A DNA stretch of 32,850 bases from Magnetovibrio sp. (GTDB taxonomy: Bacteria > Pseudomonadota > Alphaproteobacteria > Rhodospirillales > Casp-alpha2): positions 5,381 through 38,230 of the forward strand of contig PARE01000044.1 in NCBI GenBank assembly GCA_002709525.1, given 5' to 3'. Of this stretch, positions 1,042 through 25,749 are shown piece by piece. Each line of letters begins with the position of its first letter. Within the stretch, counting starts at the first letter, position 1. The position numbers and the translations under genes are program-made. The notes below the pieces were generated by a model, which saw nothing but the letters and a program-made list of their open reading frames with translations, was not told the origin of the DNA and made no database searches.

Positions 1042-1896
1042 CTATATTTGTTGTGATTCAAATATCGACCTTTGACCTTTCAAGGGGGGTAAAGGGCAGG
1101 GTTCCATATCCATCTCTGGAAATTTGGGGTGCTTCCCGCGCACAATTGCACCGTTATATTGACTATCTTGGTTATAGGGCATGATCGGAAGGGAGGCTGC
1201 TTTTGAATACGCGAAGAGAAGAAGGGGCCGCGGCTTGATTGGATTTAAATTTGGTTGGGAACCATGGACTGCTCTGCAGTGATGTACGGTGACTGTCCCA
1301 ATCGACCCTGTATTGTATCTCGCCTTGCCCGTCGCAATGGCATCAAGATCATCATCGTTTATGAAGCCCTGCCATCTTCCATCGGGGTCATAATGATTGT
1401 AAATCGGACCTTTATGCGATCCGGGGATGACACCCATCGGGCCCATGGTTTCATCAATATGATCAAGAGCCACACCTATGGTTAGGACATTATACGAGGT
1501 GTGCGGCCAGAACGGGATATCTTGGTGCCATTTGACCTCTGCACCACCATCGGACCATTTATAATTTAGCTTTCCGTGATGAAACTTGACATTCGGTCCA
1601 AGAAGGTCCGCGGCCAAATCAGCGAACGGGCCCTGACTGGCCAACTCCCAGAACACTGGATCATAATCTTGCGGCTTCATAAGTCGGCGAAGACGCGGCT
1701 TTTCCACACTATGATCACTCTCTAAATCAAACCAATCGTTCGTTTTGCTCACACTTCGGCTATCCTCAATAGCACGGTCAGCCGCATTATTAAGTCGCGT
1801 TAACCACTCGTCGTTTATAAATCGCGGTAGAAATAAAAAACCATCACAATAAAAAGTCGCTCTTTGTTTTGTCGATAACAGGTTAAGTCTACTCAT
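1042..1896 (-). CDS. Phytanoyl-CoA dioxygenase (PhyH) family protein
   Basis: A 284-residue Fe(II)/2-oxoglutarate dioxygenase of the PhyH family. The iron-binding triad is visible: H124 and D126 in KWHQDIPFW, and the distal histidine H211 in VHHCRAVHGSQPN, with R223 in KPRPLLLF as the probable 2-oxoglutarate anchor. The segment GPMGVIPGSHKGP is the usual PhyH strand-turn. These enzymes hydroxylate unactivated C-H bonds of small acids, CoA esters or osmolytes; the substrate is not evident. The frame is open upstream to 1959, but ATG 1896 has AGAAGG 8 nt before it and fits family length, so I chose it. It is the most downstream minus-strand gene of the catabolic island, about 310 nt after the TcuA-like gene. 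Confidence 0.88.
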   Translation of the reverse strand: MSRLNLLSTKQRATFYCDGFLFLPRFINDEWLTRLNNAADRAIEDSRSVSKTNDWFDLESDHSVEKPRLRRLMKPQDYDPVFWELASQGPFADLAADLLGPNVKFHHGKLNYKWSDGGAEVKWHQDIPFWPHTSYNVLTIGVALDHIDETMGPMGVIPGSHKGPIYNHYDPDGRWQGFINDDDLDAIATGKARYNTGSIGTVTVHHCRAVHGSQPNLNPIKPRPLLLFAYSKAASLPIMPYNQDSQYNGAIVRGKHPKFPEMDMEPCPLPPLKGQRSIFESQQI

Positions 1897-2207
1897 TCTG
1901 TTTAACCTTCTCTCAAGCATACAGAACCTTTGCTCCGCTATTAAATAACACACTCCCACGTCTTGGTCTAAGCTGCAAAAGCCATCATTAGTTGCGCTTC
2001 AAGAAGCCTGACTGCTCATATGAGCATCGGAGCGCGGGCGTCTTAGGGCCTTGTCTAAGCTGGCGGGTTGCCATTCCGATTAATGCAGAATATCAGGCGA
2101 AACTCACTACATTGTATCCTAACTGTCGACTGAACAAACACCACCTATTCCCAGAGGTCGCTAGATCAGGGGCATTGGTCGTCGGCTAAGTCGAATAGCT
2201 CCAATGT
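1897..2207. other. Spacer between PhyH and TcuA-like genes
   Basis: This 311-base stretch has no convincing gene. It contains the perfect 14-bp palindrome described separately, and the 10-mer gtctaagctg occurs twice (1966-1975 and 2053-2062). A 65-codon plus-strand frame (1992-2189) has no ribosome-binding site and no recognisable content. The spacer is long enough to hold a separate promoter for the PhyH gene. Confidence 0.5.
2013..2026. repeat. 14-bp perfect palindrome, possible operator
   Basis: TGCTCATATGAGCA reads identically on both strands. It lies about 117 bases upstream of the PhyH start in the PhyH/TcuA-like spacer, a position compatible with binding by a dimeric transcription factor. 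No regulator gene is encoded nearby, so the role is only inferred. Confidence 0.35.
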
Positions 2208-3695
2208 TTAACTTCTTCGTGCAGCCTCGCCTGCAGATGTGCCTGCTAAGCGCCCAAAAACAGAACCAGAGGTCAACCCTGTACCACCAGGATAATTAAA
2301 GAAGAACAGTCCTCCAACGAGTTCACCGGCAGCATAAAGACCTGGAATTGGATGCATATCTACATCCATCACTTGGCCTGACTGTGGATCTATTTTAAGG
2401 CCGCCAAATGTAAAAGTGATACCACAAGTAATTTGATATGCCTCATAGGGAGGGTGATCTAATTTATTTGCCCAGTTCGTTTTTGGAACATCTAAGCCTC
2501 GCGTGCCGCGGCCATCTAATATCGTGGGATCAAAATGAACTTCATCCATCACCGCATCGTTAAAGTTTTCAATAGTTCTAATAAACTCACTGGAATTGAC
2601 TCCAGCCAGCTTTGTAGAAAGCTCCTCGATGCTATCAGCTGTCACCTTGGTAATTTGTCTGATTCGATACTCATCACGAAGCTTATCAGTAACTTTCTGG
2701 TCAAATACTTGCCAAGCTAATTGGTTTGGTTGTTTAAGAATTTCCGCGCCATACTTTGCATATGTATAATTGCGAAAATCTGCACCCTCATCAATAAATC
2801 GCTTACCGTCGGCGTTTACTATAATCCCGAGTGGATAACTATGTTTCTGGAAATTATCGCCAACTTCCAAGTCTCCATATGGTGGCGCATTGAAGTCCCA
2901 ACCCACAGAGTGGCACCCAGACCAATTACCGTATGGCATAGCACCGATATCAAGGGCCATCCGAATTCCATCGCCAGTGTTGTATTTGGTTCCACGGACT
3001 TTAGCGAGTTCCCATCCAGGCCCAAGATAACGAGAGCGCATTTCCGCGTTGGCTTCGAAACCTCCGGCAGCAAGCACCACAGATTTGGACCTTATTTCGC
3101 GGATCTTGCCCTTCTCCTTGACCTTGACGCCCAAAACTTTTTCACCGTCATAAATTAGTGAAAGCACACGAGTCTCAAAAAGCACCTCAACCCCGGCCTC
3201 TCGAGCAATTTTAAGCTCAGTCTCTACCAGACCGGGGCCACCGCCCCATGCTTCAACACAAAGACCACCCCAAAATTTATATTTTCCGTCTACCTTGAAA
3301 GCCTGTCGACCATAACTCGGTTGGAAACGTACACCCTTTCCTTTCATCCATTGAAGAGTTGAAAGACTGTGGGTAACGAGCACTTCTACTAAATCTGCAT
3401 CGCATCGAAAGTTCGTTACGCGGTACATATCGTCATAAAAGTCATCCGCCGTATATATGCCGAAATCTGTGTTCTCACGTTCCTCCGGATTTATATCAAT
3501 TATTGTTTCGAGGTCTTGAAGACCGTGATGTGCAAATCGAATTGCACCTGCGGTGTATCTGCTATTACCGCCAAAATCTTCATCGGGCGCTCTTTCGAGA
3601 ACAGCAACTTTGGCATTTTTGTCTATTGCGGCAGCAAGAGCTGAGCAAAACGCAGCGTTGCCTGCACCAACCACAATCACGTCATAGTCATTCAT
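2208..3695 (-). CDS. FAD-dependent dehydrogenase, TcuA (tricarballylate dehydrogenase)-like
   Basis: A 495-residue flavoprotein of the fumarate reductase / 3-ketosteroid dehydrogenase superfamily. The N-terminus has the FAD dinucleotide motif VVGAGNAAFCSALAAA and the flavin-contact segment FGGNSRYTAGAIRF, which is characteristic of TcuA-type proteins. The C-terminal FAD-capping motif is GLYAAGELVGG...NYPGGTGLTSGSVFGR. TcuA oxidises tricarballylate to cis-aconitate; related enzymes introduce C=C bonds into other polycarboxylates. The usual partner TcuB (Fe-S/heme electron-transfer protein) and TcuC transporter are not present, so electron acceptor and substrate are open. ATG 3695 has a GGA 9 nt upstream. 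The neighbouring LeuC/LeuD-type hydratase would be a logical next enzyme. Confidence 0.8.
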   Translation of the reverse strand: MNDYDVIVVGAGNAAFCSALAAAIDKNAKVAVLERAPDEDFGGNSRYTAGAIRFAHHGLQDLETIIDINPEERENTDFGIYTADDFYDDMYRVTNFRCDADLVEVLVTHSLSTLQWMKGKGVRFQPSYGRQAFKVDGKYKFWGGLCVEAWGGGPGLVETELKIAREAGVEVLFETRVLSLIYDGEKVLGVKVKEKGKIREIRSKSVVLAAGGFEANAEMRSRYLGPGWELAKVRGTKYNTGDGIRMALDIGAMPYGNWSGCHSVGWDFNAPPYGDLEVGDNFQKHSYPLGIIVNADGKRFIDEGADFRNYTYAKYGAEILKQPNQLAWQVFDQKVTDKLRDEYRIRQITKVTADSIEELSTKLAGVNSSEFIRTIENFNDAVMDEVHFDPTILDGRGTRGLDVPKTNWANKLDHPPYEAYQITCGITFTFGGLKIDPQSGQVMDVDMHPIPGLYAAGELVGGLFFFNYPGGTGLTSGSVFGRLAGTSAGEAARRS

Positions 3696-3994
3696 TATAA
3701 TTCATCCAATCAAAACACTCAGATTTTCAATGGTGCAGCACTCATATTGTGACGTATTGGATCAAATTTGAACCAAGCGATCAATATGGTCTACCTCGTT
3801 TTTTTGGTAATGTGCGCGTTTTAATCACTGTCAGGTTTGGGTTAGGGACAACCGCTGTTACCGTATGGGTGTTTAAGCTACCATCGCGGATTTATTTTCT
3901 ATTAAAGCTTAGCGGTACGGGCAAGCTGAGATGGATTGACATAGATTTTAAAGCTATTGCTATAGGTGATTGAAATTCCGCCAGGTCATACGAG
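3696..3994. other. Divergent intergenic region (TcuA-like / YHYH genes)
   Basis: About 300 bases between the divergent starts of the TcuA-like gene and the YHYH gene. It should hold both promoters. A 74-codon plus-strand frame (3749-3973) has no ribosome-binding site or family signature and I regard it as chance. No strong inverted repeat was seen. Confidence 0.45.
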
Positions 3995-4794
3995 ATGAAA
4001 AGTCCGCTTAAATTAGTTGTCTTTGCAACAATGTCATTTGCATTAATGCTGCAGGCTTGGGGCGCCAGTAACAATAAGGTCAGTATATCAACAAAAATGG
4101 AAAGCGATGTTTTTCGGCTAATGGAATTCCGGATCACCCAACAGGGAAGTTTCCCAATCGTGGAAATCCAAATGTTATCAGGGCACAGGATATCAATATT
4201 TGCATCACGATGAAGCCCAGAAAAGGTACGGTTCCCAAGCCGATAAAAGGAATCATGGGTATAGCAATAAATGGTGTACCGTTTCGGCCAAATACAGCCG
4301 GGTTTTGGGATCCAAGCGCGCGACATGGTCACAGTCGTCGCGGTAATAAACACTGGAGCCTGGAAATATTTGGCACCCCTGTAAAACTAGGACTTGATTC
4401 ACACAATGCCCACGTGGGGAGAGGCGGCATGTATCATTACCACGGAATTGCGCAAAGCCTGACAAGAACTTCTGGTACTTCTCTTGTTGGTTATGCGGGA
4501 GATGGTTTTAAAATCTACTATCGTCCCATTAAAATCTACTATCGTCCCAGTGAGAAGAAATCGGGCTGGCGACTTAAGAAGGGGACGCGCCCGATTGGAG
4601 GACCACCTGGCGTTTATAACGGATTATACAATGAGGACTATGAATATGTTGGAGATGAAAATGCACTTGACCGATGCAATGGTGCCCATACAGATGAAGA
4701 TTATGCATACTTTATAACGGACAATTACCCATTTTTACCTCGATGTTTATACGGAGATATCAGCTCTTATGTTAACAGAAGGGAGCATCGATAA
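3995..4794 (+). pseudogene. YHYH-domain exported protein, split by a one-base frameshift
   Basis: Two frames together encode one protein. The first (from ATG 3995) starts with a clear Sec signal peptide (MKSPLKLVVFATMSFALMLQAWGA) and reads NNKVSISTK up to an A5 run at 4093-4097. After that run the sensible sequence continues in the other frame: NGKRCFSANGIPDHPTGKFP..., joining in frame with the second part that ends at 4794. That part has the hallmark GMYHYHGI and the ending DRCNGAH...YFITDNYPFLPRCLYG, both typical of YHYH proteins. Adding one A to the run would restore about 267 codons. YHYH proteins are exported and of unknown function; the histidines may bind metal. The stretch also contains an in-frame 21-bp tandem duplication. 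The break could be a real mutation, a sequencing error or slippage. Confidence 0.8.
4510..4549 (+). repeat. 21-bp-period tandem duplication inside the YHYH gene
   Basis: The 19-mer AAAATCTACTATCGTCCCA occurs at 4510-4528 and again at 4531-4549, period 21. It keeps the frame and makes the protein read KIYYRPIKIYYRP, a seven-residue duplication that looks recent because the copies are identical. Confidence 0.85.
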
Positions 4795-4837
4795 AGAATT
4801 ATTCGACGCGATGAGCCATATGATGACTTGGGCTTCA

Positions 4838-5344
4838 CTATTCGGCATCCTCTAAAAGCCCCTCTGACTGCAACATTGGGATCACACCGCCGGCCTCAGC
4901 AATTTCCAATAAGGGTTGCGGGAGAGCACTACCAGAAATCCCATTAGCCTTGGTTAAATTTTGAACGCTTCCAGATTGCCAATCTACCAAAATGCGATCC
5001 CCGTCACTTATTCCGGTGGTAGCCCCGAGACAGGTCAGAACGTGGACTCCATAGTTGACACAATTGCGCATACCTAGACCATTGAAAGTAGAAGCGATTA
5101 CACCAGCAACCCCGAGATGAGCGAAAACTTTTCCTATAGGCCTTGCTGAGCCCAGACCAAAGTTCGTCCCGGCGACGATAATGTCGCCAGGCTGGACTTT
5201 ATCGCTCCAACCTGGACGATTAGCAGAAAAGCAATACTTGCTTTGCTCCTCAACCGGCAAAAGAAATGCCATGCCTGGCAAAATTAGATCCGTATTAATA
5301 TCATCTCCAAAGACCCAGGCGATCCCCTCATTTTTCAGAGCCAT
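4838..5344 (-). CDS. LeuD/aconitase-swivel-type hydro-lyase small subunit
   Basis: A 168-residue small subunit of the 3-isopropylmalate dehydratase / homoaconitase family. The swivelling-domain signatures are present: WVFGDDINTDLILPG at the N-terminus and the substrate-loop GTNFGLGSARP, where the usual Ser-Ser-Arg region reads GSARP. It partners the large subunit encoded immediately upstream, whose stop ends 2 nt before this ATG, so the two are cotranscribed. The length fits the short LeuD2/DmdB/HACN type rather than the long bacterial LeuD. Because leucine genes (leuA, leuB) are absent and catabolic genes surround it, I expect a degradative hydratase/dehydratase rather than leucine biosynthesis. 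Confidence 0.82.
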   Translation of the reverse strand: MALKNEGIAWVFGDDINTDLILPGMAFLLPVEEQSKYCFSANRPGWSDKVQPGDIIVAGTNFGLGSARPIGKVFAHLGVAGVIASTFNGLGMRNCVNYGVHVLTCLGATTGISDGDRILVDWQSGSVQNLTKANGISGSALPQPLLEIAEAGGVIPMLQSEGLLEDAE

Positions 5345-5346
5345 GT

Positions 5347-6594
5347 CTAAAGATCTCGCGGATCTGTAATGAAACCGCGAACTGCAGACGCTGCAACAGT
5401 GGCCGGCGAGCCCAGATAGATCTCTGCTTCAGAGCTCCCCATTCGGCCCTGGAAATTTCGGGTACTTGCGGTGATGCAAACTTCGCCGTCACCAAGAACG
5501 CCCATGTGACCACCATAACAAGCACCGCAGGTCGAATTAGTTACAACGGCTCCCGCACTCATTAGGGTCTCGACATAACCCTTAGCGAGGGCTTCTTGCA
5601 GAACTTTTTGGCTACCAGGGGTGACGATCATTCTCACGCCCGGCGCTACTTGCCGGCCTGACATAATTTCTGCAGCCACCTCAAAATCTTCGATACGGCC
5701 ATTAGCGCAAGATCCAATGAAGGCTTGATCTATCCTGGTTTCAGCAAGCAAATTGGCTTCAGTTGCGTTATGCGCAACCTTATGCGGAAGCACAACCAAA
5801 GGTTCAATTTTAGAAATATCGATCCGAATAACTTCGTCGTAGGCAGCATCTGGATCAGGATCTACGGGTTCATAACCTTTGGATGCACGGCCATTAAGAT
5901 ATTTGCGTAAGATATCATCATGTCGAAATAGTGAAAATTCTGCCGAAAGCTCTGCAGATAGAGTTGCCAATGTGAAACGGCCTTGCATTGGCATTGCGGC
6001 AACCGCATCGCCATCCCATTCCAGGTTCTTGCCAGGAAAGGCGCCATAAACATTAGCGATGTGATGGAGAATATCGCGAGCATAAACCCGCTCATTTAAA
6101 TTGCCGTCGAGGATAAGCTTGACGGTTGGGCCAACCATGTACCAGGCTTGCCCTTTACAAAGCGCGTACATCATGTCTGCAAGTCCGAGACCACGTGCTA
6201 AGCAATTAAGTGCTCCTGAGGAACACGAATGTGAGTCATCGCAAGCAATTGTCATACCCGGCAACGCAAGGCCCTCCTCACCAAGAATGACATGCGCGAT
6301 GCCGTGCCGGCCCTCCGCAAAGAATTTCTCTATTTCAAATTTTTCAACAAATTGTCGCATGCGCCGCATTGCGTTTGCAGCAGAAATACTAGGTGCTGGT
6401 ACCGTATGATCGGCTACCACTACGATCTTATCCGGGTCAAAAATACTTTTTGGTACTTGGTGACCATCGGTAATTCCAAATACAATATCAAGGTCGACGA
6501 CTAGGTCGAGATCCGCCATGACAATATCACCAGGCGCAATCTCTTTCTTACCGGAATGTGCCGAGAGGATTTTCTCTGTAATCGTGTGACCCAT
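5347..6594 (-). CDS. LeuC/homoaconitase-type hydro-lyase large subunit
   Basis: A 415-residue aconitase-superfamily large subunit of the short LeuC2/HACN/DmdA kind. The three [4Fe-4S] cysteines are visible: C296 in GSCANGR and C356 and C359 in STCGACYGG. Other family blocks are DSHSCSSGALNC and SSEAEIYLGSPATVAASAV. The enzyme should hydrate or dehydrate a polycarboxylate (isopropylmalate, homoaconitate, dimethylmalate, citramalate or aconitate type). The frame is open to 6660, but ATG 6594 has AAGG 8 nt upstream and starts at the conserved MGHTITEKIL, so I chose it. It heads the LeuC-LeuD pair after a long AT-rich spacer that probably carries the promoter. Confidence 0.87.
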   Translation of the reverse strand: MGHTITEKILSAHSGKKEIAPGDIVMADLDLVVDLDIVFGITDGHQVPKSIFDPDKIVVVADHTVPAPSISAANAMRRMRQFVEKFEIEKFFAEGRHGIAHVILGEEGLALPGMTIACDDSHSCSSGALNCLARGLGLADMMYALCKGQAWYMVGPTVKLILDGNLNERVYARDILHHIANVYGAFPGKNLEWDGDAVAAMPMQGRFTLATLSAELSAEFSLFRHDDILRKYLNGRASKGYEPVDPDPDAAYDEVIRIDISKIEPLVVLPHKVAHNATEANLLAETRIDQAFIGSCANGRIEDFEVAAEIMSGRQVAPGVRMIVTPGSQKVLQEALAKGYVETLMSAGAVVTNSTCGACYGGHMGVLGDGEVCITASTRNFQGRMGSSEAEIYLGSPATVAASAVRGFITDPRDL

Positions 6595-7132
6595 GATACA
6601 TACCTTGACTATCTTTTTTATTTCTGACGAAACCACCGAATATCTCAATACGCACGACAAGTCAGATAAAATTAACGCATTATTTATTGTTCTTTAATGA
6701 ATAGTTTCTTTGAGACTGCCAACAAATATATTCCTTTCTAATATCCCGTGTTTGCATTAGCCCTAAGAGTAGAGTCGAATATTATTCCATCCTACTTTAT
6801 AGAAAATGAAGAAAATATGCAAAACATGAGGGGAAATAGGATAATAATAAAGCTTTATTTAAAAAATATATTTATAATAATTAAACCTTAAATAATTGAT
6901 ATATAAATACATAAACAAGGAAATGTCTTTAAATGTAATCAACTAACTCTATTTTATTGAGTCTTAGAAGAATCGCAAATAAGATTATTCAAATAGCTCG
7001 TATCTTTTTCTTAGTGCGCATTCAGGAACAATCTAAATTAAACATATGATAGATTAAAATTGGTTTGGGAATATGATGTCTCACTTCTGTCTGTTATTCG
7101 TGAGGGTTGAGCATTGTAAAGTTACAGATCTA
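6595..7132. other. Strongly AT-rich spacer without genes
   Basis: About 540 bases with no supportable gene on either strand. The core, roughly 6660-6990, is almost entirely A and T with many short runs such as ttatttaaaaaatatattt. It lies between the MFS gene (ending at 7133) and the LeuC-type gene, so it should contain that gene's promoter and any terminator of the MFS transcript. No clear hairpin with a U-tract was seen. Its composition would also suit a xenogeneic-silencing or IHF-type binding region; this is inference only. Confidence 0.5.
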
Positions 7133-8362
7133 TTATTGTCGTGCGCGAAGGGCCAGTAGCAAGAGCAAGAGAATAACACTCATCCCCGTAAGCATGTACA
7201 GTGCGGCTGAAAAGCCGCCACTTAAATCAGAGACTACTCCGACTAATACGGGGCCGCCGACACCACCAACTTCGGCCGCGGAAAAAAACATGCCTCCAGC
7301 AACCCCGGCACGCTCCGTGCCAACACCCGGGATATCCAACAACACTAAAATAGAGAGTGTCATAGCACTACCTCGCGCAATGCCTTGAACAATCAATCCC
7401 ACTGTCAACCAAAGCCCGTCAAATGCTTGCAACATGATTGATGAAGCACCAAAACATAGAAATAGAAAGCCTAAAATCCATACCCGTCTCATGGGAACGG
7501 CAAGTCTGGGAATTGCGAGCGAAGACAGAACGGAGAACACGACAGGAATGGATGCCAAGTAACCCGCCGTGGTCGCATCAATGCCCTTGGATCGTAGAAT
7601 TTCCGGCAGCCAATTATTCATACTGTGATTGCAAAAGAAAATACCAATGCTAATCGCTAACACGATTTGAAAAGCTGGAATGCGAATGAGGCGCTTGAAG
7701 TTCTCCTTTTGCGACCCGCTTGGCTTGGTGCTGAGTTCACCTTCCACTTTTTTACAGCCTGGATGCGCTGTGATCAGCCACCAAACGAGACTTGAGGCAG
7801 CAATAAAAACGGCATAAAGAAGCATAACAGCGCGCCAATCCCCATTCATTATTGGCATGAACAGCCCATTAGTCAAAGAAAGCCCAGACATGGAACCAAG
7901 CATCGGTGCTGTCATATAAATTCCCATTGCCATGCCGCGACCACTACCCTCAAACCAAAGATTTATCGTCTTAGGTGCGCCAACTGAGACTAATGGGCCC
8001 CCTAAACCAAACACAGCTACCGCCAGAAACAAGCTTGCATAGTCAACAGCCTGAGAGCGCAGCACAACCGATACGGCTATCATTATAAAAGCTAGCATCA
8101 GACCCCGCCTAATCCCTGTCCGATCCAGAAGAATTCCAAGCGGAACGGCGGACCCGATATAGACAAGCTGCCAGGCGCCAAGTACTCCCCCCATCTGAGA
8201 ACGACTGAGACCAAGTTCAGTTGAGATTTCCGCAACCAATGGCGCTAAACTGACGATGGTCAGTCCAAAGCAATAATAGGCAAGCCAAACCCCGGCCAAG
8301 ACCGCCCAACGGAGCGGACTACTGCTAGCCTCAAAGCTTGATATATCTTCTCTATCGTTCAC
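7133..8362 (-). CDS. MFS transporter
   Basis: A 409-residue protein with about twelve hydrophobic segments. The MFS signature between TM2 and TM3 is seen as GILLDRTGIRRG. A short cytoplasmic loop (CKKVEGELSTKPSGSQKENFK) separates the two six-helix halves, and a second GAPKTINLWFEG block lies near TM4-5. It resembles MFS members that move small organic anions. The GTG start at 8362 has only a weak upstream Shine-Dalgarno. Placed between the LeuCD-type and the lyase/CoA-transferase genes, it is the obvious candidate importer of the pathway's substrate, although that is contextual. It contains no tcuC-specific mark that I can see. Confidence 0.85.
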   Translation of the reverse strand: MNDREDISSFEASSSPLRWAVLAGVWLAYYCFGLTIVSLAPLVAEISTELGLSRSQMGGVLGAWQLVYIGSAVPLGILLDRTGIRRGLMLAFIMIAVSVVLRSQAVDYASLFLAVAVFGLGGPLVSVGAPKTINLWFEGSGRGMAMGIYMTAPMLGSMSGLSLTNGLFMPIMNGDWRAVMLLYAVFIAASSLVWWLITAHPGCKKVEGELSTKPSGSQKENFKRLIRIPAFQIVLAISIGIFFCNHSMNNWLPEILRSKGIDATTAGYLASIPVVFSVLSSLAIPRLAVPMRRVWILGFLFLCFGASSIMLQAFDGLWLTVGLIVQGIARGSAMTLSILVLLDIPGVGTERAGVAGGMFFSAAEVGGVGGPVLVGVVSDLSGGFSAALYMLTGMSVILLLLLLALRARQ

Positions 8363-8714
8363 GATTTCGCCAGTTTATTGTCTCAAAGTATCCTTGGGCT
8401 AAAATTCCAACGCTCAGCCCTTTGAAAACCAAGAAAGCTCAATCGTCCATTTCAGAAGAGAGTGAGGACTTGATCGCTACCATACCACCGATGACTTAGG
8501 TGAATTTCTATATAATCTATGGTGGGACGCTGGCTTGGACTTCGCAAGGTCACTTACTCACTCACGTTATGCGGAAATTTACTAGGCAACGGTTAAATCA
8601 ATATATTAAACAACTCCCATTATTTACTTCTTATTTCAGGAGCAGATACAGACCGTTCGTGTGGAGTTTGAACTAAATTTTTTCAAAATATTTGTATGGT
8701 AACTTTCTAGTGAG
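8363..8714. other. Spacer between MFS and lyase genes
   Basis: This 352-base stretch lacks an intact gene. It includes a 40-codon plus-strand open stretch (8466-8585), described separately as a possible gene remnant, and an AT-rich tail near 8590-8700. No good terminator hairpin was found. Confidence 0.4.
8466..8585 (+). pseudogene. Possible remnant of a GlnD-like nucleotidyltransferase gene
   Basis: A start-less frame bounded by TGA (8463-8465) and TAG (8583-8585) reads ...DLGEFLYNLWWDAGLDF and then ARSLTHSRYAEIY. The block 'LY-LWWDAGLD' resembles the segment after the nucleotidyltransferase active site in GlnD (PII uridylyltransferase), usually LYxLWDxGLKVGHA. The match is short and from memory, so this is only a hint that a larger gene once occupied the spacer. 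Confidence 0.25.
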
Positions 8715-9608
8715 TTAATGCCCAAGGCGACTAGGAATATCGAGGATACCCTCAATCTCTTTGGCGGTCTTTAATACCAGATTTGTATCTAAACCCGTTT
8801 CGATCTCCGACCTGTTTAGCATGTTCACTATGTCCTCTGTCCGCAGGTTCCCAATATCACCCGTTCCATCCGGCATCGCAATGCCGCCACCGATACCACA
8901 AATAGACCCCTCAACTGATTTTGCATCCGCGAGTATTGCGCCGTACATGTTCGCAGCCGCCATGCCAGTTTTTTCGTGCACATGAAAACCCAACTCAATC
9001 TCGGGCCAACGAGTGCGAATACTTGAGAAAACCCTATGAACATGGATTGGATTCTCCATTCCCGTGCTGGCTGCCAAGTAAAGTCGTCTAATACCTTTTT
9101 GATAAAGTTTTTCTACAACGTCAAAGACAGATTTATCTGATAAAGTGCCTTCATAAGGACAAAAGAAGGCGATACCTATCGCCATTACAAATCTAATCCC
9201 CGCATTTTGAGCTAAGTGGAAACAGTCTCCCGCGGTCTCTATTGCTTGATCCATTGTCATATTTTGATTTTTCTTGAGATAGGTCTCGCTGACGGTAAGC
9301 AAGCCGAGTATTTCATCCACTAAACCCGACTCTATCGCGCGGAGAGCACCCTTTTTGTTTGGAACCAATGCGCGATAAATAGTTCCAGATCGTCGCTTTA
9401 TTCGCTCAAGTACCGCCTCGCCATCGGACAACATTGGCACAACCTTTGGGTGTGCAAAACTTGTTACTTCTATTACAGGAAATCCTGCGTCAGAGAGCAA
9501 ATCAACCATGGAAATTTTATCATTGGTCGAGATCCAACGAGGAAAAGATTGAAGACCATCTCTTGGCCCCACTTCTGCCACAACAATTCTTCGACCCTTT
9601 TTACTCAT
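8715..9608 (-). CDS. HMG-CoA lyase-like (DRE-TIM) enzyme with altered active site
   Basis: A 297-residue TIM-barrel protein of the hydroxymethylglutaryl-CoA lyase family. The opening motif EVGPRDGLQ (R16, D17), the SFAHPKVVPMLSD strand, and the metal histidines H209 and H211 in FHVHEKTG are present, as is the Asn (N254) after the mobile loop. However, the loop that normally reads GGCPYAxGASGN reads GGGIAMPDGTGDIGN, so the catalytic cysteine is replaced by glycine; the usual LGDTIG also reads LAASTG. It therefore probably cleaves a different 3-hydroxyacyl-CoA (citramalyl- or alkylmalyl-CoA type) or catalyses a related reaction. Its ATG lies inside the end of the CoA-transferase gene (8-nt overlap ATGAGTAA), so the two are translationally coupled. 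Confidence 0.8.
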   Translation of the reverse strand: MSKKGRRIVVAEVGPRDGLQSFPRWISTNDKISMVDLLSDAGFPVIEVTSFAHPKVVPMLSDGEAVLERIKRRSGTIYRALVPNKKGALRAIESGLVDEILGLLTVSETYLKKNQNMTMDQAIETAGDCFHLAQNAGIRFVMAIGIAFFCPYEGTLSDKSVFDVVEKLYQKGIRRLYLAASTGMENPIHVHRVFSSIRTRWPEIELGFHVHEKTGMAAANMYGAILADAKSVEGSICGIGGGIAMPDGTGDIGNLRTEDIVNMLNRSEIETGLDTNLVLKTAKEIEGILDIPSRLGH

Positions 9609-10848
9609 GATCTTTTCTCACTCCAGAAATATTTATTTCATATCCCTCTCGAATTAATCGCTGTGGGTCAAAACCAAGCATATCAACCAATATCTCTTTA
9701 TTATGTTCCCCAAGCTTCGGTCCAGCATGTTTAATTTTTCCCGGTGTACGAGAGAAATTCCCAACAACATTCTGCATTTTGAGGGGGCCGTTTAACTCCG
9801 CGTCGTCAACGGCAACAATATTACCTCTCGCAGCAAAATGAGGGTCCTCAAATATTTCAGCTATATTATTACAAGCGGCAACAGCCGCTCCGAATTCATC
9901 AAAAATTTCAATTAAAGTATCCCTATCAAATTTAAGGATCGCCTCTTGCAATGCATCGTCTAACTTCTCTGCATTTTGAATTCGAAGTCTATTGTCTAAA
10001 AACCGCGGATCGTTGATCAGTTCGGGCACATGCAAAGCCTCGCACATGCGCTCAAAAGTTGATTGAGCACTCCCAGAAATTGAAACCCATTTATCATCTT
10101 TGGTACGGAACGTATTTCGAGGCGCGGTGAATGGCAGTCGGCTTCCGTTTCTCTCCTGAATTATTCCCAATTGGTCATAATCAACGACCTGAGGGCCAAG
10201 AAGTGTAAACAGTGGTTCGTAGATACCAAACTCTACAATCTGACCTCTGCCGCTCTTCTGATCTCTCTCGCGCAATGCTGCTAATGCTAAATATGCGCCC
10301 ATCAAGCCAGACGTTTCATCAGCAAGCCCAAATCCGGGTAGCAGCGGAGGCCGGTCAGCATAACCGGTAATTGATGCAAAACCCGCATAACCCTCGGCCA
10401 AAGTGCCAAAACCTGGACGGTGGCTATTGGGGCCGGTTTGGCCGAACCCAGTAATTCTTATCATAATCAAACCAGGGTTAATCTCACTCAGCGTGTTATA
10501 ATCAAGTCCCCATTTTTCTAGTGTACCTTTGCGATAATTCTCAATAATTATATCTGCATCTCTGATTAATTCCTTTACGATTTCGACGCCTAATGGCGTA
10601 CGTAAATCTGCCGTGACAGAACGCTTGTTTCGGTTGACCAATTTGTACATCAACCCAACACCGTCTTTATTATTACCCCAAAACCTTATTTCATCTCCTG
10701 TGCCAGGCCGCTCTACTTTGATAACATCGGCGCCATAATCGCCGAGAAACATGGAGGAAATCGGTCCCGCAAGAAAATTTGAGATATCAATAACCCGAAC
10801 ACCGCTCAACGCCTCATTCATGAGGTCATCAAAATTTTTATTTTCCAC
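9601..10848 (-). CDS. Class III (CaiB/BaiF) acyl-CoA transferase
   Basis: A 415-residue family III CoA-transferase. It begins with the typical LSGVRVIDISNFLAGP and the glycine-rich GDYGADVIKVERPGTGDE. The middle holds the NRNKRSVTADL and TGFGQTGP blocks and the probable catalytic Asp (~177) in GFGLADETSGLMGAYLA. Such enzymes move CoA between acids such as succinate, malate, citramalate or formate/oxalate. The frame is open to 10911. I chose the GTG at 10848 because GGAGG lies 9 nt upstream; an ATG at 10821 without a clear site is an alternative. It is the first gene of a two-gene unit with the lyase-like gene, implying activation of a hydroxy acid to its CoA ester followed by cleavage. Confidence 0.88.
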   Translation of the reverse strand: MENKNFDDLMNEALSGVRVIDISNFLAGPISSMFLGDYGADVIKVERPGTGDEIRFWGNNKDGVGLMYKLVNRNKRSVTADLRTPLGVEIVKELIRDADIIIENYRKGTLEKWGLDYNTLSEINPGLIMIRITGFGQTGPNSHRPGFGTLAEGYAGFASITGYADRPPLLPGFGLADETSGLMGAYLALAALRERDQKSGRGQIVEFGIYEPLFTLLGPQVVDYDQLGIIQERNGSRLPFTAPRNTFRTKDDKWVSISGSAQSTFERMCEALHVPELINDPRFLDNRLRIQNAEKLDDALQEAILKFDRDTLIEIFDEFGAAVAACNNIAEIFEDPHFAARGNIVAVDDAELNGPLKMQNVVGNFSRTPGKIKHAGPKLGEHNKEILVDMLGFDPQRLIREGYEINISGVRKDHE

Positions 10849-10937
10849 TAGAATATTCCTCCAAAAATTCTTTAGAATGACAAATATACCCCGGGTTAAA
10901 ACATACCACACCTCATAATTCTTAGTATAGAAGCAGC

Positions 10938-11942
10938 ATGAAACTCGCTATTCTCGATGATTATCAATCGGTCGCACATCGCTTTGTTGATTGGTCTGGG
11001 GTCCCCAATATCAAAGTGGTGGCTTTCAATGACCATATAGAGAAAGAAGATGAATTGATTGGTCGATTAAGTGATTTTGATGCCGTAATGCGCATCCGCG
11101 AACGAACTCAGTTTTCAAGACGTGTTTTAGAATCTTTACCCAAGTTGCGTCTGATTTTGGCGACCGGTATGCGTAACGGAAGATCAATTGATCTAAATGC
11201 TACTGATGAGCTTGGAATCACAGTCTGCACCACAGACGCTTTGCACCAAACAACAGTCGAGGTTACATGGTTGCTGATCCTCGCTTTGTTTCGGGGGTTT
11301 CCGGCAGAGTATAAACTATTGAGAAGCGGCGGCTGGCAATATGGAGTAGGCACAGGCCTCGCAGGTAAAACCCTTGGCGTTCTGGGGCTGGGTAACATGG
11401 GTAAGCCCGTGGCTAAAATTGGTCAAGGTTTCGGGATGGACGTGATTGCCTGGAGCCCAAATCTCACGCCAGAGCGAACCCAGCCTCTTAACATTAAATG
11501 TGTCTCAAAAGAAGACCTATTCCGGCGGTCCGATGCGCTTACCATTCATATCCCGCATACAGATACTACAGAAGGATTAGTAGACGCGCGTTCAATTTCC
11601 TGTATGAAACAGCAGTCTTTCCTGATCAACACATCTCGTCCAAAACTTGTGGATGACGACGCTTTAATCGATGCCCTGGTGTCTGGAAGGATAGGAGGAG
11701 CTGGTCTTGACGTATTTGAAATTGAGCCGCTTCCCCGCAACCATCCGTACCGAACATTAAATAACGTTATTGCAACCCCCCATTTAGGTTTCGTAACCGA
11801 AGAGAATTACCGTATATTTTTCTGCGAAAGCAAAGAAAACTTGGTTGCCTATCTTGAAGAAGACCCAATCCGCATAATCACAAGTGATACTCCTTTTCTG
11901 CCTGACTCTCAGGTCGCCCAACAAATGCACCGCGGAAAGTAA
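10938..11942 (+). CDS. D-2-hydroxyacid dehydrogenase, NAD-binding
   Basis: A 334-residue member of the D-isomer-specific 2-hydroxyacid dehydrogenase family (SerA/PdxB/LdhA relatives). The Rossmann motif GLGNMG is at 150-155. The catalytic residues are R234 (NTSRPKLV), E263 (FEIEPLP) and H282 (ATPHLGFV). It would interconvert a 2-oxo acid and a D-2-hydroxy acid with NAD(P)H. It lacks the ACT domain of classical SerA, so serine synthesis is not specifically supported. It is divergent from the CoA-transferase, with 89 bases between the starts. A CATAAT at 10914-10919 could be the -10 box of a short-leader promoter. The position suggests it belongs to the same metabolic island. Confidence 0.86.
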   Translation: MKLAILDDYQSVAHRFVDWSGVPNIKVVAFNDHIEKEDELIGRLSDFDAVMRIRERTQFSRRVLESLPKLRLILATGMRNGRSIDLNATDELGITVCTTDALHQTTVEVTWLLILALFRGFPAEYKLLRSGGWQYGVGTGLAGKTLGVLGLGNMGKPVAKIGQGFGMDVIAWSPNLTPERTQPLNIKCVSKEDLFRRSDALTIHIPHTDTTEGLVDARSISCMKQQSFLINTSRPKLVDDDALIDALVSGRIGGAGLDVFEIEPLPRNHPYRTLNNVIATPHLGFVTEENYRIFFCESKENLVAYLEEDPIRIITSDTPFLPDSQVAQQMHRGK

Positions 11943-12458
11943 TAACAATATTTTAATCTGTTATAACGACAGGAGGATGCAAACGGCACTGATTGGGGTC
12001 GAAGTATCTTTTATCTTGGATACACGTAAAAATTTCAAATGGATATCGAGAATATCGGAGTCAACCACACTCGTGTAATTAATTCTCATTTTAAAGTCGG
12101 TTGACCATTGCCAGCTATACTTGGTTAGAGCTTTTGATTACGATGGCAAAGTAACGGGCGTAGCTGAAATTCTTGAATATTTGGTGAAGTAGTCAGAAAT
12201 TAAGAGACCTTTTTATAGAAGATCAAAATTGCCTGAAAAATTTTAATTATGTGATTATATAATGATATAATAAATGGGTAAATTTAATCTTAACTATATC
12301 AATATACTAATATATTTCTATTATTTGATCGGTTTAATTTAATAATCCATACGCTATTATTGGATACTATTTAAGCTAAAAACATTTCTAGTTACTGTCC
12401 TGAGTTACAAGATCCCACCACTGTGAAAAATTTTTAGTATTAACTTGTGGCACTTAGA
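11943..12458. other. Gene-free AT-rich spacer between convergent genes
   Basis: This 516-base stretch lies between the ends of the hydroxyacid dehydrogenase and the TPR gene, which converge. The 12230-12380 part is very AT-rich. A short start-less plus-strand frame ends at about 12192 with VRAFDYDGKVTGVAEILEYL and looks faintly coding, but I could not assign it. No clear Rho-independent terminator was found; taata-rich weak repeats follow the dehydrogenase stop. Confidence 0.45.
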
Positions 12459-13748
12459 TCAATGTGATGCTGGGGTTAATCCAGATACAAGCTCTTTTCG
12501 CAATGCCCGAGGCCTGGTAATCGAAAGAACGGTCCTCGCTTCCTGTCGTCGCCCGTCTTTTATCAGGCAAAACGCAAGCGAGAAATCAATTAGATCGCGT
12601 TGAGCATTGGAACCACCCAGGCGGGCGTGATCACGTAGAACCGTACTGAAAAATTTAGCAGCCCTTGCCCAATTCTGGTCCTCCATTTCCCGATAGCCTC
12701 TGGCGAGTGTCCTCGTGATGTCGCCTGCCGGTCCACTTCCACTTTCGATAATATTGTTTAGAGCTACTTGATCCCCACCGCGAGCATGCGCTATCGCAGC
12801 GTGCACATCTGCAAATGCAAGTCCAGTGTTAGGAAACTTAGTTAACGCATAGCGGCTCAGTGCGCTCCATCGCTCGGAGGGTACCTCAACGCCTGCAAGC
12901 TCAGCACGGAACAATAACGCCACGGAGTCTGTTAATATATTTAAGGGCGGCCCTTTGCTCGTTAAAGGTGAAATATCCACGTCTAACACTTGCCACATCC
13001 GACCCAAGTCACCACTTTCAAGTGACCATAAGCCTACGTGCCAAGAAACGTGGTTATATAGTGCCGCAGATGGGTCGTAGTGCTTCCAAAACTTGATCAA
13101 GTAGGGAAGGCCCTCGCCATCCTGAATATTTTCATAATATAAATGAGCGCGAATGTGCATGGAATGTGCACTATGGGGGTTTGCATCTATGGCAGCGTCA
13201 ATATTTCTCTCTGCCTCATTAAGTTGTCCAACTTCTAATTGGGCAAACGCAAGTTGTGCGCGGAGCCACCAATTATCTCCGTAATGAGGAATGAGTTGCG
13301 AGATAAAAGCTAATTGCTCGGCCTCTCGACCCGGGAGGCCTGAGAACCCAATCAAGCCAAAAACACTCGTACACATTTGAGCGATTAAAACGTCTTTAGG
13401 CCAATTCTTTACGTGCTCATAAACCGCAGTACGGGCCGCAGAGGATTTTCCTTCAAGCAGCAAGGTTGATACATGCAAGTGAGATTGCTCTCTATCACTA
13501 ATATTGGAAGTCAATTCATGAGCGCGATTAAGGCTTGCCCTTAGCTGGCTTGGCTGACCCCGCAACTGCATTTCTCGCGCGAGACCTATATGCGCAAGTG
13601 CAAAACCCTCATCCGCATCGATTGCTGATTGGAAAGCAGTTTCGACGCCAGGCTCCGCACCTAAAAAACGGTGGACGCCCAGGTCGTATGCCTCGCGAGC
13701 CTCATTGGAGAGAGTGCTAATAGAATTTTCATAAGCATCAGATAGCAT
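12459..13748 (-). CDS. TTC38-like tetratricopeptide-repeat protein
   Basis: A 429-residue soluble helical repeat protein without signal peptide or membrane span. Degenerate TPR units can be seen around GFALAHIGLAREMQLRG, NWWLRAQLAFAQLEVGQ and NEAERNIDAAIDANPHSAHS, and the segment HVSWHVGLWSLESGD is reminiscent of the TTC38 family (tetratricopeptide repeat protein 38), common in alphaproteobacteria. The molecular role of the family is not established; protein-protein interaction is the general inference. ATG 13748 has AGGA 8 nt upstream. It is transcribed away from the cyclase gene, with 276 bases between them. Confidence 0.8.
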   Translation of the reverse strand: MLSDAYENSISTLSNEAREAYDLGVHRFLGAEPGVETAFQSAIDADEGFALAHIGLAREMQLRGQPSQLRASLNRAHELTSNISDREQSHLHVSTLLLEGKSSAARTAVYEHVKNWPKDVLIAQMCTSVFGLIGFSGLPGREAEQLAFISQLIPHYGDNWWLRAQLAFAQLEVGQLNEAERNIDAAIDANPHSAHSMHIRAHLYYENIQDGEGLPYLIKFWKHYDPSAALYNHVSWHVGLWSLESGDLGRMWQVLDVDISPLTSKGPPLNILTDSVALLFRAELAGVEVPSERWSALSRYALTKFPNTGLAFADVHAAIAHARGGDQVALNNIIESGSGPAGDITRTLARGYREMEDQNWARAAKFFSTVLRDHARLGGSNAQRDLIDFSLAFCLIKDGRRQEARTVLSITRPRALRKELVSGLTPASH

Positions 13749-13866
13749 TTAATAATTCCTGCGTTGTCATATTATAAGATTAATTTTGAATACATCACAT
13801 GGATTGAGAGTTAAGATCACGCGACGAACTAATCTGTGAGGCAAGCAACTGTTGTATTATCCAAAA

Positions 13867-13950
13867 GAAAGACGGTTATGCAAATTGTCTAAACAAGTGT
13901 TACAACCATTGAGAATTGGTGCAATTTACCGATTTTAATGACCGTCTTTT
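13867..13950. repeat. Long inverted repeat upstream of the cyclase gene
   Basis: The arms 13867-13879 and 13938-13950 pair over 13 positions (9 Watson-Crick in AAAGACGGT/ACCGTCTTT plus outer and inner pairs that include G-U wobbles). Inside, AAATTG (13882-13887) pairs with CAATTT (13922-13927), giving a nested stem. The right arm ends in CGTCTTTT. It lies 75-160 nt before the cyclase start, so it could be a structured leader, a terminator-like element or a protein-binding site. Confidence 0.4.
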
Positions 13951-14024
13951 GAGTTAAGGCTCAAGGCGCAACGGATCAAATCCACGTCCATGAAACCATC
14001 TAAGACCCATAAGGACCGAGTATC

Positions 14025-15230
14025 GTGACTAATACCTTTCCAATTCCTGATAGAGAGGAAGAGCGCGTCGCAGAACTTGAGGAATATCAAATTCTTGACA
14101 CGGTCCCAGAGGCCGCATTTGACGAAATAACAGAGTTAGCTGCCGAAATATTGCAATGCCCCGCATCATTCATCGAGTTCATGGATGGAAATAGACAGTG
14201 GTTTAAATCAAAATACGGGCTTCCAGATGATTACACGGAAACACCGCGTGATATCGCAGTTTGCTCGCATACAATCTGCCAGAGTGATCTATTGTGCGTT
14301 CCAGACCTGTCTGAAGATGAGCGATTTGCTGACAATCCCCTTGTAAACAACGCACCCAATGTACGCTTTTATGCCGGCATGCCTCTCATTACTCCAACCG
14401 GGCATGCAATAGGCACCTTGTGCACCGTTGATTTTGAAAAGAGAGAATTGTCCATAAGTCAACAAGAGGCCCTAAGACGGCTATCAAGGCAAGTCGTCAC
14501 ACAACTTGAATTGCGACGCGCTCTTCTTGAAATGAATGACGCTATAAAAACGCGCGACGATATGAATGCGGAGTTACAATCAGAACGGGAAAAGACTGAT
14601 ATCTTGATGGAAAAAATTCTTCCAAAATCTATTGCCGAAGAAATTAAAGATAACGGTAAGGTGACTCCCCGGTATTTTGATGAAGCAAGTATCTTATTCT
14701 CTGACATCGTTGGCTTTACTAAACTCACAGAGACCCTTCCTCCAAACACTCTGGTCGATCTCCTCGATCAAATATTTTGTAGATTTGATACGATAGCTGC
14801 CAAACATGGAGTAGAAAAAATTAAGACTATTGGGGATGCTTACATGTGTGTATCTGGTATCAACAATGACAAAGAAGGACACGCAGAAAAATTATGTGCG
14901 ATGGCAATTGAGATGCGTGATTACATGCAGAAGGCCAATGTACAACGAGAGAAGCTTAGAATGCCACGTTGGGACATTAGGATAGGGATTCATTCAGGAC
15001 CGGTGATATCTGGTGTAGTTGGAGAAAATAAATTCACGTTCGATATCTGGGGAGACGCAGTCAATATCGCATCTTTGATGGAACAAAATTCTGAGAGTGG
15101 TCGGATAAATATCTCGGAAAGTACTCAATATCGAGTGCATCAAAAATTTAATCTAATAGATCGTGGAGAAATCGCATCTTCAAAGAAAGGTAATCTGGCG
15201 ATGTTCTTTCTTGAAAATTCTAAACCTTAA
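14025..15230 (+). CDS. GAF-domain class III adenylate cyclase
   Basis: A 401-residue soluble protein. Residues ~20-165 form a GAF domain (ending AGMPLITPTGHAIGTLCTVDF), ~165-200 a coiled linker, and ~215-385 a class III nucleotidyl cyclase domain. Metal ligands D227 (LFSDIVGFTKL) and D271 (TIGDAYM) are present. The base-specificity pair K267 and D340 (FDIWGD) is that of adenylate rather than guanylate cyclases. N347 is kept, but the transition-state arginine expected four residues later (NxASR) is L351, which may lower activity or require a different partner. The GTG start is preceded by AAGGA at 9 nt spacing. The GAF domain probably binds a small ligand that controls cAMP synthesis. Confidence 0.9.
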   Translation: MTNTFPIPDREEERVAELEEYQILDTVPEAAFDEITELAAEILQCPASFIEFMDGNRQWFKSKYGLPDDYTETPRDIAVCSHTICQSDLLCVPDLSEDERFADNPLVNNAPNVRFYAGMPLITPTGHAIGTLCTVDFEKRELSISQQEALRRLSRQVVTQLELRRALLEMNDAIKTRDDMNAELQSEREKTDILMEKILPKSIAEEIKDNGKVTPRYFDEASILFSDIVGFTKLTETLPPNTLVDLLDQIFCRFDTIAAKHGVEKIKTIGDAYMCVSGINNDKEGHAEKLCAMAIEMRDYMQKANVQREKLRMPRWDIRIGIHSGPVISGVVGENKFTFDIWGDAVNIASLMEQNSESGRINISESTQYRVHQKFNLIDRGEIASSKKGNLAMFFLENSKP

Positions 15231-15540
15231 CAGTTCAAGGTCACCTCTCTGTTTCCTCCTGATCTCATCCCAGTACGTGTAATTTCTCACTTTCATTATA
15301 CCTATTATTCTACTGGTATAATTTTATCTATTTTTCACCAAATTAGGTACAAAGAGTTCGATGTTTTGCACCTAAACTTATCATTTTTCTTTCTTGGAAG
15401 AGATTTCTTATGGTGGTGGCGTGCATACGTACGCCAAATTCTTTATAATACCCAGGTGTCGACCAGTCCGACTCTAATCCGGGAATCCAAAGCCTGATAA
15501 TTGACCGTGAAGGGCAACGAGAAACTTCAATGACAAGGTA
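15231..15540. other. Spacer after the cyclase with candidate terminator hairpins
   Basis: These 310 bases have no gene. ATTATACC (15295-15302) can pair with GGTATAAT (15315-15322), followed by TTTATCTATTTTT, a possible though AT-rich Rho-independent terminator of the cyclase gene. TTAGGT (15343-15348) and ACCTAA (15370-15375) form a second small inverted repeat. The rest should hold the promoter of the following glycosyltransferase gene. Confidence 0.45.
15295..15335 (+). terminator. Candidate Rho-independent terminator of the cyclase gene
   Basis: An 8-bp inverted repeat (ATTATACC/GGTATAAT, 12-nt loop) is followed by a T-rich run. The stem is weak because six of its eight pairs are A-T, so confidence is low. 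Confidence 0.35.
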
Positions 15541-16563: not shown

Positions 16564-16567
16564 ATTC

Positions 16568-18418: not shown

Positions 18419-18428
18419 AAACACCTCT

Positions 18429-20426: not shown

Positions 20427-20838
20427 TCAGCACTGGTGTTAAATATCTCGAAGCGAGTGAGGCGTGCCGATAGGAGAACAAAGATTGAGTAATGTTTCTC
20501 TGGCTCCGGTGCCCGGACGATAACCAAGGGCGCAAAGTGTCCTCGCCATGGGCAATGAGGTTAGCACGGAATTTCTCAGAGTTGTTCAACGAGATATGCT
20601 TCGCCAGCTCGTTAGAGCCCATGATTTCAAACTTCCAGGACGGAGCGTCGACAGGTCCCAATTCTACTCGAACAATAAACCACGTAACCTGCGAAAAATT
20701 AAAATAAACGACTCTGAAAATAACGATGAGTTTACGTTCCCGCAGCAAAACGAGACGCGCTAAGTTGGGACAGGCCGTTGTTATCAAATTAAAAAGCGCC
20801 CGGCCAAAAGAATTAGAAAGTGAGTAACCACGCCTCAT
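20368..20838 (-). CDS. N-terminal part of the membrane protein, separated by a frameshift
   Basis: ATG 20838 overlaps the methyltransferase stop as ATGA, a classic coupling signal, so translation should enter this frame. It encodes a basic N-terminus (MRRGYSLSNSFGRAL), one probable membrane helix (KLIVIFRVVYFNFSQVTWFI) and an extracytoplasmic-looking region ending LASRYLTPVLIEG. Removing one base from the pair at 20418-20419 would continue this as EGYPTPYQGSVSAIQLMF directly into the large membrane protein. In its own frame it ends in IPHALSRLGERNTVDV. Either it is the broken 5' part of an ~802-residue protein or an independent ~156-residue protein that overlaps its neighbour by 59 nt; I favour the first. 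Confidence 0.6.
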   Translation of the reverse strand: MRRGYSLSNSFGRALFNLITTACPNLARLVLLRERKLIVIFRVVYFNFSQVTWFIVRVELGPVDAPSWKFEIMGSNELAKHISLNNSEKFRANLIAHGEDTLRPWLSSGHRSQRNITQSLFSYRHASLASRYLTPVLIEGIPHALSRLGERNTVDV

Positions 20839-22255: not shown

Positions 22256-22256
22256 T

Positions 22257-23843: not shown

Positions 23844-23844
23844 A

Positions 23845-25719: not shown

Positions 25720-25749
25720 ATGTTATAATCCGTGGCGCTTCTGGATTCA

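Follow-up and report, generated by a model that had tools for sequence, protein, structure and literature searches.

The window analysed here, a stretch of 32,850 nucleotides of contig PARE01000044.1 (positions 5,381 to 38,230 of the forward strand) in the Magnetovibrio sp. assembly GCA_002709525.1, carries between nt 1042 and 11942 a group of genes that may have been acquired horizontally and serve in the catabolism of a 2-substituted C4 diacid, a reading to which slightly less than even weight is given. Its core consists of four genes encoding a class III CoA-transferase (CaiB), an HMGL-like acyl-CoA lyase, and the two subunits (LeuC and LeuD) of an aconitase-type hydro-lyase; the same four genes recur in the same order on haloarchaeal plasmids, the lyase belongs to a small clade devoid of the catalytic cysteine, and the LeuCD is separate from that of leucine biosynthesis. 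More tentatively, these genes could represent a new CoA-dependent pathway by which proteobacteria and haloarchaea break down 2-substituted succinates or malates, one in which LeuCD would supply a tertiary hydroxy acid and a distinct HMGL-derived, cysteine-independent lyase would cleave its CoA ester. The core genes are as follows.

9601-10848, minus strand: class III CoA-transferase, CaiB (PF02515; start analysis)
8715-9608, minus strand: HMGL-like (DRE-TIM) acyl-CoA lyase, no catalytic cysteine (PF00682; alignments and tree)
5347-6594, minus strand: LeuC/homoaconitase-family large subunit (TIGR01343, 434.7, cut-off 385.7; NF001614; tree)
4838-5344, minus strand: small subunit of the aconitase-type hydro-lyase, LeuD/DmdB family; GSARP replaces GSSRE (TIGR02087, 115.8, cut-off 108.95; alignments)

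The open reading frame (ORF) of caiB is open to nt 10911, the better start being the GTG at nt 10848, which is preceded by GGAGG; that of leuC is open to nt 6660, with nt 6594 taken as the start.

The core gene order recurs on haloarchaeal plasmids

CaiB, HMGL, LeuC, and LeuD genes were contiguous and in this order in seven of eight haloarchaeal stretches with an HMGL of the cysteine-less type, the sample consisting of plasmids and the eight stretches being examined out of 10 plasmid records with an HMGL match of E 1e-50 or better. The carriers are plasmids of Natrinema versiforme, N. zhouii, Halorubrum ezzemoulense, Haloferax lucentense, H. gibbonsii, and two Halomarina; the exception, another N. 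zhouii plasmid, possesses CaiB-HMGL together with a TctC gene and no LeuCD within 5 kb. Outside these eight, CaiB, HMGL, and LeuC matches were adjacent by coordinates in Haloferax alexandrinus and H. gibbonsii CP011949, and a Halorussus halophilus stretch, chosen for its CaiB, showed CaiB followed by CoA ester lyase and ABC transporter genes, with neither HMGL nor LeuCD. An FAD oxidoreductase gene was located inside the cluster in five of the seven stretches; that of Natrinema versiforme scored as flavocytochrome-c/TcuA-like, below the cut-offs, and shared 28% identity with the TcuA-like protein of the window. LeuCD of the haloarchaea falls outside the window's clade and retains GSSRE. Since the two LeuC are in different clades, CaiB-HMGL has come together with two distinct LeuCDs, and this is the best evidence available from sequence that the pairing in the window would be functional.

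Amidohydrolase genes were present in six and LLM monooxygenase genes in five of the seven haloarchaeal clusters, the records naming families only. In four stretches (L083, L084, L086, and L227) the cassette lies beside LLM monooxygenase, NTF2-like, isochorismatase, and amidohydrolase genes, and hut genes were observed in two Haloferax stretches; these neighbours hint at a nitrogen heterocycle as the source of the acid there.

An HMGL-like lyase without the catalytic cysteine

In 3-hydroxy-3-methylglutaryl-CoA (HMG-CoA) lyase, Cys266 is the catalytic residue, and Arg41, Asp42, Glu72, Tyr167, His233, His235, and Asn275 are the metal and substrate residues, as given in a passage of PMC6941031. 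The cysteine was kept in 60 of 69 aligned rows and was absent from the window protein, which reads GIGGGIAMPDG, three residues longer, where canonical rows read GLGGCPYAPG or similar. Equivalents of all seven other residues (R41, D42, E72, Y167, H233, H235, and N275) were retained, the Tyr167 column, which holds 28 F, 27 Y, and 12 M in the 69 rows, being our own assignment and the weakest of the seven. Eight cysteine-less rows, namely the window protein, genome G241, five haloarchaea, and Aminobacter, formed one clade (SH-aLRT 97) in a quick tree built without bootstrap and with the motif columns left out; a ninth row without the cysteine (L064) was a mis-called ORF and was not counted. Three more haloarchaeal lyases, examined after the tree had been made, likewise had no cysteine, and no cysteine-less lyase occurred among the 29 best HMGL matches of the phylum sample described below. 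Neither this clade nor the GSARP motif of LeuD had been noticed in an earlier, sequence-only reading of the locus, which had taken it for an undescribed polycarboxylate degradation island.

On the HMG-CoA lyase profile NF004283 the window lyase scored 241.2, 5 bits under the cut-off of 246, and a canonical member of a CaiB-HMGL pair scored 341.8. A canonical HMG-CoA lyase was ruled out on the missing cysteine and this score. The closest PDB relatives are HMG-CoA lyases. The protein stops about 20 residues before the end of related proteins, no continuation matching these was present in other frames, and a structure predicted from the single sequence (mean pLDDT 46.5) was too poor for use. The two other HMGLs of the genome retain the cysteine.

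A LeuCD distinct from that of leucine biosynthesis

LeuC of the window keeps the cluster cysteine motifs IGSC and TCGAC. In a LeuC tree of 59 rows it was placed, with support 100/99, in a clade of 27 rows that excludes the LeuC of a second leuC-leuD pair in the same genome (contig C49), five haloarchaeal LeuC, and those of family relatives; several long branches elsewhere leave the deep joins of this tree unsure, and the LeuC of L083, the ORF of which was called too long, is absent from it. The GSSRE substrate-binding motif is highly conserved in small subunits, according to a section of PMC7308503. The window LeuD, with GSARP, fails the isopropylmalate-isomerase test for this motif, and in nearly every aligned row of its clade a P comes after GS(A/G/S)R. 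No leuA- or leuB-type protein was found among the window genes scanned. Leucine biosynthesis was therefore ruled out for this LeuCD on the other leuCD in the genome, the separate LeuC clade, and GSARP; the sequence-only reading, which had denied a standard leucine set and reported leuA and leuB as absent, was borne out, the phylogenetic comparison having been fixed beforehand. Relative to the nearest relatives, LeuC and LeuD showed proportions of nonsynonymous differences (pN) of 0.07-0.21 with synonymous differences (pS) saturated, and both subunits have therefore been kept by selection.

A loop of LeuD governs substrate preference, as stated in part of PMC7308503. This loop reads AFLL in the window versus YLRT in the homoaconitase of the PDB, with Leu where homoaconitase has Arg. 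The arginine is the residue that binds the extra carboxylate, and because the window loop is without it, a substrate with an alkyl side chain is slightly more likely for LeuCD than a tricarboxylate.

Within 3 kb of LeuCD of the window clade, 28 loci contained genes for MmgE/PrpD (14/28) or for lyases of the isocitrate lyase/PEP-mutase (ICL/PEPM) type (14/28), with one or the other at no fewer than 22, at least, since several loci end less than 1 kb from LeuCD. In this count L045 was excluded as lying outside the clade, the contig-end pieces L046 and L047 were included though not in the tree, and L037, with two LeuCD copies, was counted once. A different arrangement, CoA-transferase-LeuC-LeuD, was observed in G020 (L082) and other genomes of the same family; that of G020 includes MaoC, acyl-CoA dehydrogenase, MmgE/PrpD, and rhodanese-domain genes, and its LeuC clade differs from that of the window.

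The CaiB-HMGL pair in other genomes

CaiB spans positions 1-366 of the 366 of PF02515 (388.5 bits) and meets none of the listed NCBIfam cut-offs; the human-type succinate-hydroxymethylglutarate CoA-transferase (SUGCT) is among its nearest solved relatives (219 bits). In 398 sampled genomes of the phylum, 168 of which gave a match, 25 of the 29 best-matching HMGL loci (the window excluded) had CaiB within about 1.5 kb of HMGL, and CaiB-HMGL is a real unit. Twenty CaiB-HMGL regions picked from these loci, some of them shortened by contig ends and one reference row being in a wrong frame that could yield no matches, contained LysR-type (16), MFS (4), TctC (4), and TRAP permease (1) genes. In G601, a D-2-hydroxyacid dehydrogenase gene is divergent from CaiB, as in the window, and in the closest relative, G241, CaiB (61% identical) and HMGL (52%) are followed by TctC, TctB, and TctA. 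A plasmid of Paraburkholderia caribensis (L146, nt 6799-16454) carries CaiB-HMGL with DctA, MFS, SMP-30-type lactonase, D-2-hydroxyacid dehydrogenase, and glycerate kinase genes, a combination that would be suitable for splitting itatartarate into hydroxypyruvate and acetyl-CoA.

Other genes and organization of the locus

The remaining genes of the locus are listed below.

1042-1959, minus strand: PhyH-family Fe(II)/2-oxoglutarate dioxygenase (PF05721, 101 bits)
2208-3695, minus strand: TcuA-like FAD dehydrogenase (NF006130, 576.8 bits, cut-off 369)
3995-4794, plus strand: YHYH-domain gene, apparently split across two frames (PF14240 on 4210-4794)
7133-8362, minus strand: MFS transporter, CynX/NimT-like, presumed importer (PF07690; TIGR00896, 95 bits, below cut-off)
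10938-11942, plus strand: D-2-hydroxyacid dehydrogenase of the PGDH or glyoxylate-hydroxypyruvate reductase type, divergent (PF02826; TIGR01327, 199.6 bits, below cut-off)

The eight genes named in the sequence-only reading were all open frames at the positions given here and matched the expected families in Pfam and NCBIfam profiles; six enzyme genes and the carrier gene are on the minus strand with one dehydrogenase gene divergent, as had been described, and the YHYH gene on the plus strand, between those for TcuA and LeuD, had been overlooked. Tight spacing was restricted to two pairs, CaiB-HMGL (8-nt overlap) and LeuC-LeuD (2-nt gap), and the gene set therefore probably comprises several transcription units. 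Other gaps on the minus strand are wide, 248 nt for PhyH-TcuA, 538 nt for LeuC-MFS, and 352 nt for MFS-HMGL, and neither promoter-like sites (22 versus 22.8 in shuffles) nor terminator-like sites (11 versus 10.9) were in excess, so that a single operon is unsupported. The proteins scanned from 1 to 13.7 kb matched no regulator family, in agreement with the earlier report of no regulator.

The TcuA-like protein passed the NF006130 equivalog cut-off and failed that of TIGR02485 (243.5 versus 372.55). TcuB, previously noted as missing, was not found in the genome (82% complete), the best match scoring 40.9 versus a cut-off of 246.6 in a search without a positive control (0 of 14 control genomes pass). 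Homologues of the PhyH protein from the same class were at most 51% identical; among the 20 regions around the best TcuA homologues outside the window (61-67% identity), some shortened by contig ends, one (L198) had a PhyH-family match, 26% identical and about 2.7 kb from TcuA, and no PhyH homologue among the matches listed was within 10 kb of a TcuA homologue, the nearest (G126) being about 12 kb away. With so little linkage to TcuA, PhyH was set aside as a pathway member. TcuA, PhyH, MFS, and the D-2-hydroxyacid dehydrogenase would thus be counted as members by position only. In G038, TctC-TctA-TcuA(55%)-LeuC-LeuD are followed by a protein of the PEP-mutase/isocitrate-lyase type, which would be, by analogy, the same front end and logic with a CoA-independent cleaving step. 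UGSC-family proteins were observed beside polycarboxylate clusters of a proteobacterium (TcuA-LeuCD; L080:7957-9573) and a haloarchaeon (CaiB-HMGL; L226:529-1176).

The YHYH gene comprises a signal-peptide-like ORF (3995-4213) and the main domain in another frame, overlapping at ATGA; it is apparently a broken gene or the result of a sequencing error, and the protein is probably unrelated to the gene set.

Genomic setting and origin

The island has a G+C content of 45.3%, whereas ten sampled stretches of the same genome, 161 kb in total, have 53.1%. Its tetranucleotide correlation to the genome is 0.39, versus 0.76-0.96 for genome samples. Left of 18.4 kb, a dividing point of our choice, the contig correlates at 0.36-0.39, and the right part at 0.83. 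When LeuC was compared with 60 relatives, 36 of them from the same genus or family, the best near-full-length matches were 33-40% identical and short C-terminal pieces up to 46%; the nearest relatives in the named genome collection, 82-88% identical, were from metagenome assemblies of Rhodospirillaceae or alphaproteobacteria, and one end piece (86%) was from a gammaproteobacterial metagenome assembly. Foreign composition, a distant LeuC in close relatives, and close matches in other assemblies fit horizontal transfer, and the gene set was probably acquired in this way. Further along the window, nt 14025-30613 encode a GAF-adenylate/guanylate cyclase, glycosyltransferases, an asparagine synthase, methyltransferases, a DegT aminotransferase, and large membrane proteins. 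This region resembles one for a surface polysaccharide, and its part right of 18.4 kb is nearer to the genome in composition.

Proposed pathway and alternatives

Enzymes of the LeuCD type hydrate maleate- or aconitate-type double bonds and convert citraconate to (R)-citramalate, class III transferases transfer CoA between carboxylates, and DRE-TIM lyases cleave 3-hydroxyacyl-CoAs with a tertiary hydroxyl to acetyl-CoA and an oxo compound. In series, these activities would lead from a 2-substituted maleate to a 2-oxo acid and acetyl-CoA, and from the families we infer the reactions, the substrate, and the membership of TcuA, MFS, PhyH, and the dehydrogenase. The acid would be imported by the MFS carrier and oxidized by the TcuA-like flavoenzyme from R-CH(COOH)-CH2-COOH to R-C(COOH)=CH-COOH; LeuCD would hydrate this 2-substituted maleate to the (R)-2-substituted malate R-C(OH)(COOH)-CH2-COOH, the CoA-transferase would place CoA on the CH2-COOH carboxyl, and the cysteine-less lyase would release R-CO-COOH and acetyl-CoA, after which the divergent dehydrogenase may reduce the 2-oxo acid. 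The simplest fit would be R = CH3, with methylsuccinate, citraconate, and (R)-citramalate, or a near homologue of these; R could also be CH2COOH, which would make the acid a tricarboxylate. According to a passage of PMC6689899, (S)-citramalyl-CoA is the counterpart of (R)-HMG-CoA, and a lyase of the (S)-HMG-CoA type should therefore match (R)-citramalyl-CoA; by this analogy, the stereochemistry would suit an (R)-malate from LeuCD. The order of oxidation, hydration, activation, and cleavage put forward in the sequence-only reading fits the logic of the families; which substrate is used and what TcuA and PhyH contribute are conjectural. No paper on this gene combination was found in a full-text search of open-licence papers.

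Several observations weigh against such a pathway. The complete gene set was present in no other genome examined, so that the expected clustering elsewhere held for the core in haloarchaea and for CaiB-HMGL and not for the whole island. Aconitase-type matches were near only 2 of the 20 CaiB-HMGL regions, none with a LeuD of the window type, and G241, with the best HMGL and CaiB relatives, is without LeuCD of that type; conversely, HMGL and TcuA were each near 0 and CaiB near 3 of the 28 LeuCD loci, and the 20 TcuA regions contained LeuC or HMGL in none and CaiB in two. The gaps of 248-538 nt and the intervening YHYH gene argue against a single operon, no TcuB or other electron acceptor was identified for TcuA, and loss of the catalytic cysteine could mean a different reaction.

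Chance accretion in a genomic island, with CaiB-HMGL and LeuCD as separate pairs and TcuA, PhyH, MFS, YHYH, and the D-2-hydroxyacid dehydrogenase as passengers, would account for the foreign composition (45.3% versus 53.1% G+C; tetranucleotide 0.39 versus 0.76-0.96), the wide gaps, and the other partners that each part has elsewhere; it is rather unlikely, given the shared strand, the core order as in haloarchaea, and the fact that the enzymes are from families acting on di- and tricarboxylates. That the contig of a fragmented assembly (79 contigs, 82% complete, 5.15% contamination) is chimeric or misbinned and the island comes from another organism is improbable: the composition does differ between the parts left (0.36-0.39) and right (0.83) of the chosen dividing point at 18.4 kb, but the right part resembles the genome, in which the least similar sample is at 0.76, and a chimera would alter the host and not the gene set.

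Two narrower functions were each given little credence. Degradation of 3-hydroxy-3-methylglutarate or another glutaryl-type acid by CaiB-HMGL, through a SUGCT-like transferase and then HMG-CoA lyase and with LeuCD belonging elsewhere, is in line with the SUGCT-type relative of CaiB (219 bits) and the nearest PDB relatives of the lyase, but the equivalent of Cys266 is gone, three residues are inserted, the score is below the cut-off (241.2 versus 246) where a canonical pair member reaches 341.8, and two cysteine-bearing HMGLs are present in the genome. Plain use of tricarballylate, with TcuA making cis-aconitate, LeuCD as an auxiliary aconitase, and the rest incidental, would agree with the NF006130 score of TcuA and with TctC-TctA beside TcuA-LeuCD in G038; the product of an aconitase, however, requires neither CoA transfer nor a lyase, TcuB was not found over the cut-off in the genome by the search without a positive control, and the LeuD loop has Leu in place of the carboxylate-binding Arg of the homoaconitase.

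Comparison with known systems

The (R)-citramalate enzymes of Chloroflexus are a class III CoA-transferase and an HMGL-family lyase. With both classes present in the window, the reaction type would be the same if the proposed pathway is correct, the comparison being by class and not by sequence, whereas in the window LeuCD and TcuA would feed the transferase and lyase. In a section of PMC8307300, (R)-citramalate cleavage is assigned to succinyl-CoA:(R)-citramalate CoA-transferase (EC 2.8.3.20) and (R)-citramalyl-CoA lyase (EC 4.1.3.46). The pseudomonad cluster for itaconate and methylsuccinate, as described in parts of PMC12290011 and PMC9875883, resembles the proposed pathway in branched C5 diacids, CoA activation, and citramalyl-CoA cleavage but uses (S)-citramalyl-CoA lyase, itaconyl-CoA hydratase, and methylsuccinate dehydrogenase; MaoC, CitE-type, and acyl-CoA dehydrogenase families gave no match among the window proteins scanned. 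Tricarballylate utilization (TcuABC) has the TcuA-like flavoenzyme in common with the window, where TcuB was not found and a CoA-transferase and lyase are added.

Among gene clusters, those of haloarchaea share the core order and the cysteine-less kind of lyase with the window and differ in a LeuCD of another clade with GSSRE and in their amidohydrolase and LLM monooxygenase genes, whereas the clusters of MmgE/PrpD, LeuCD, and ICL/PEPM-type lyase have LeuCD of the window's own clade, and MmgE/PrpD- and ICL/PEPM-type genes where the window has TcuA and CaiB-HMGL. If the proposed pathway is true, a function would be provided for a lyase clade labelled HMG-CoA lyase in plasmid records despite the missing catalytic cysteine, and for a cassette of four genes on haloarchaeal plasmids for which the records name no substrate. 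A modular logic is suggested, in which an enzyme making the C=C bond, a LeuCD hydratase, and an exchangeable cleaving enzyme are combined, and which opens the substrates of LeuC/LeuD paralogues that carry leucine-gene annotations to direct testing. Judged from sequence, the set would be a variant of CoA-dependent hydroxy-acid cleavage with a core that recurs in haloarchaea and an unusual lyase.

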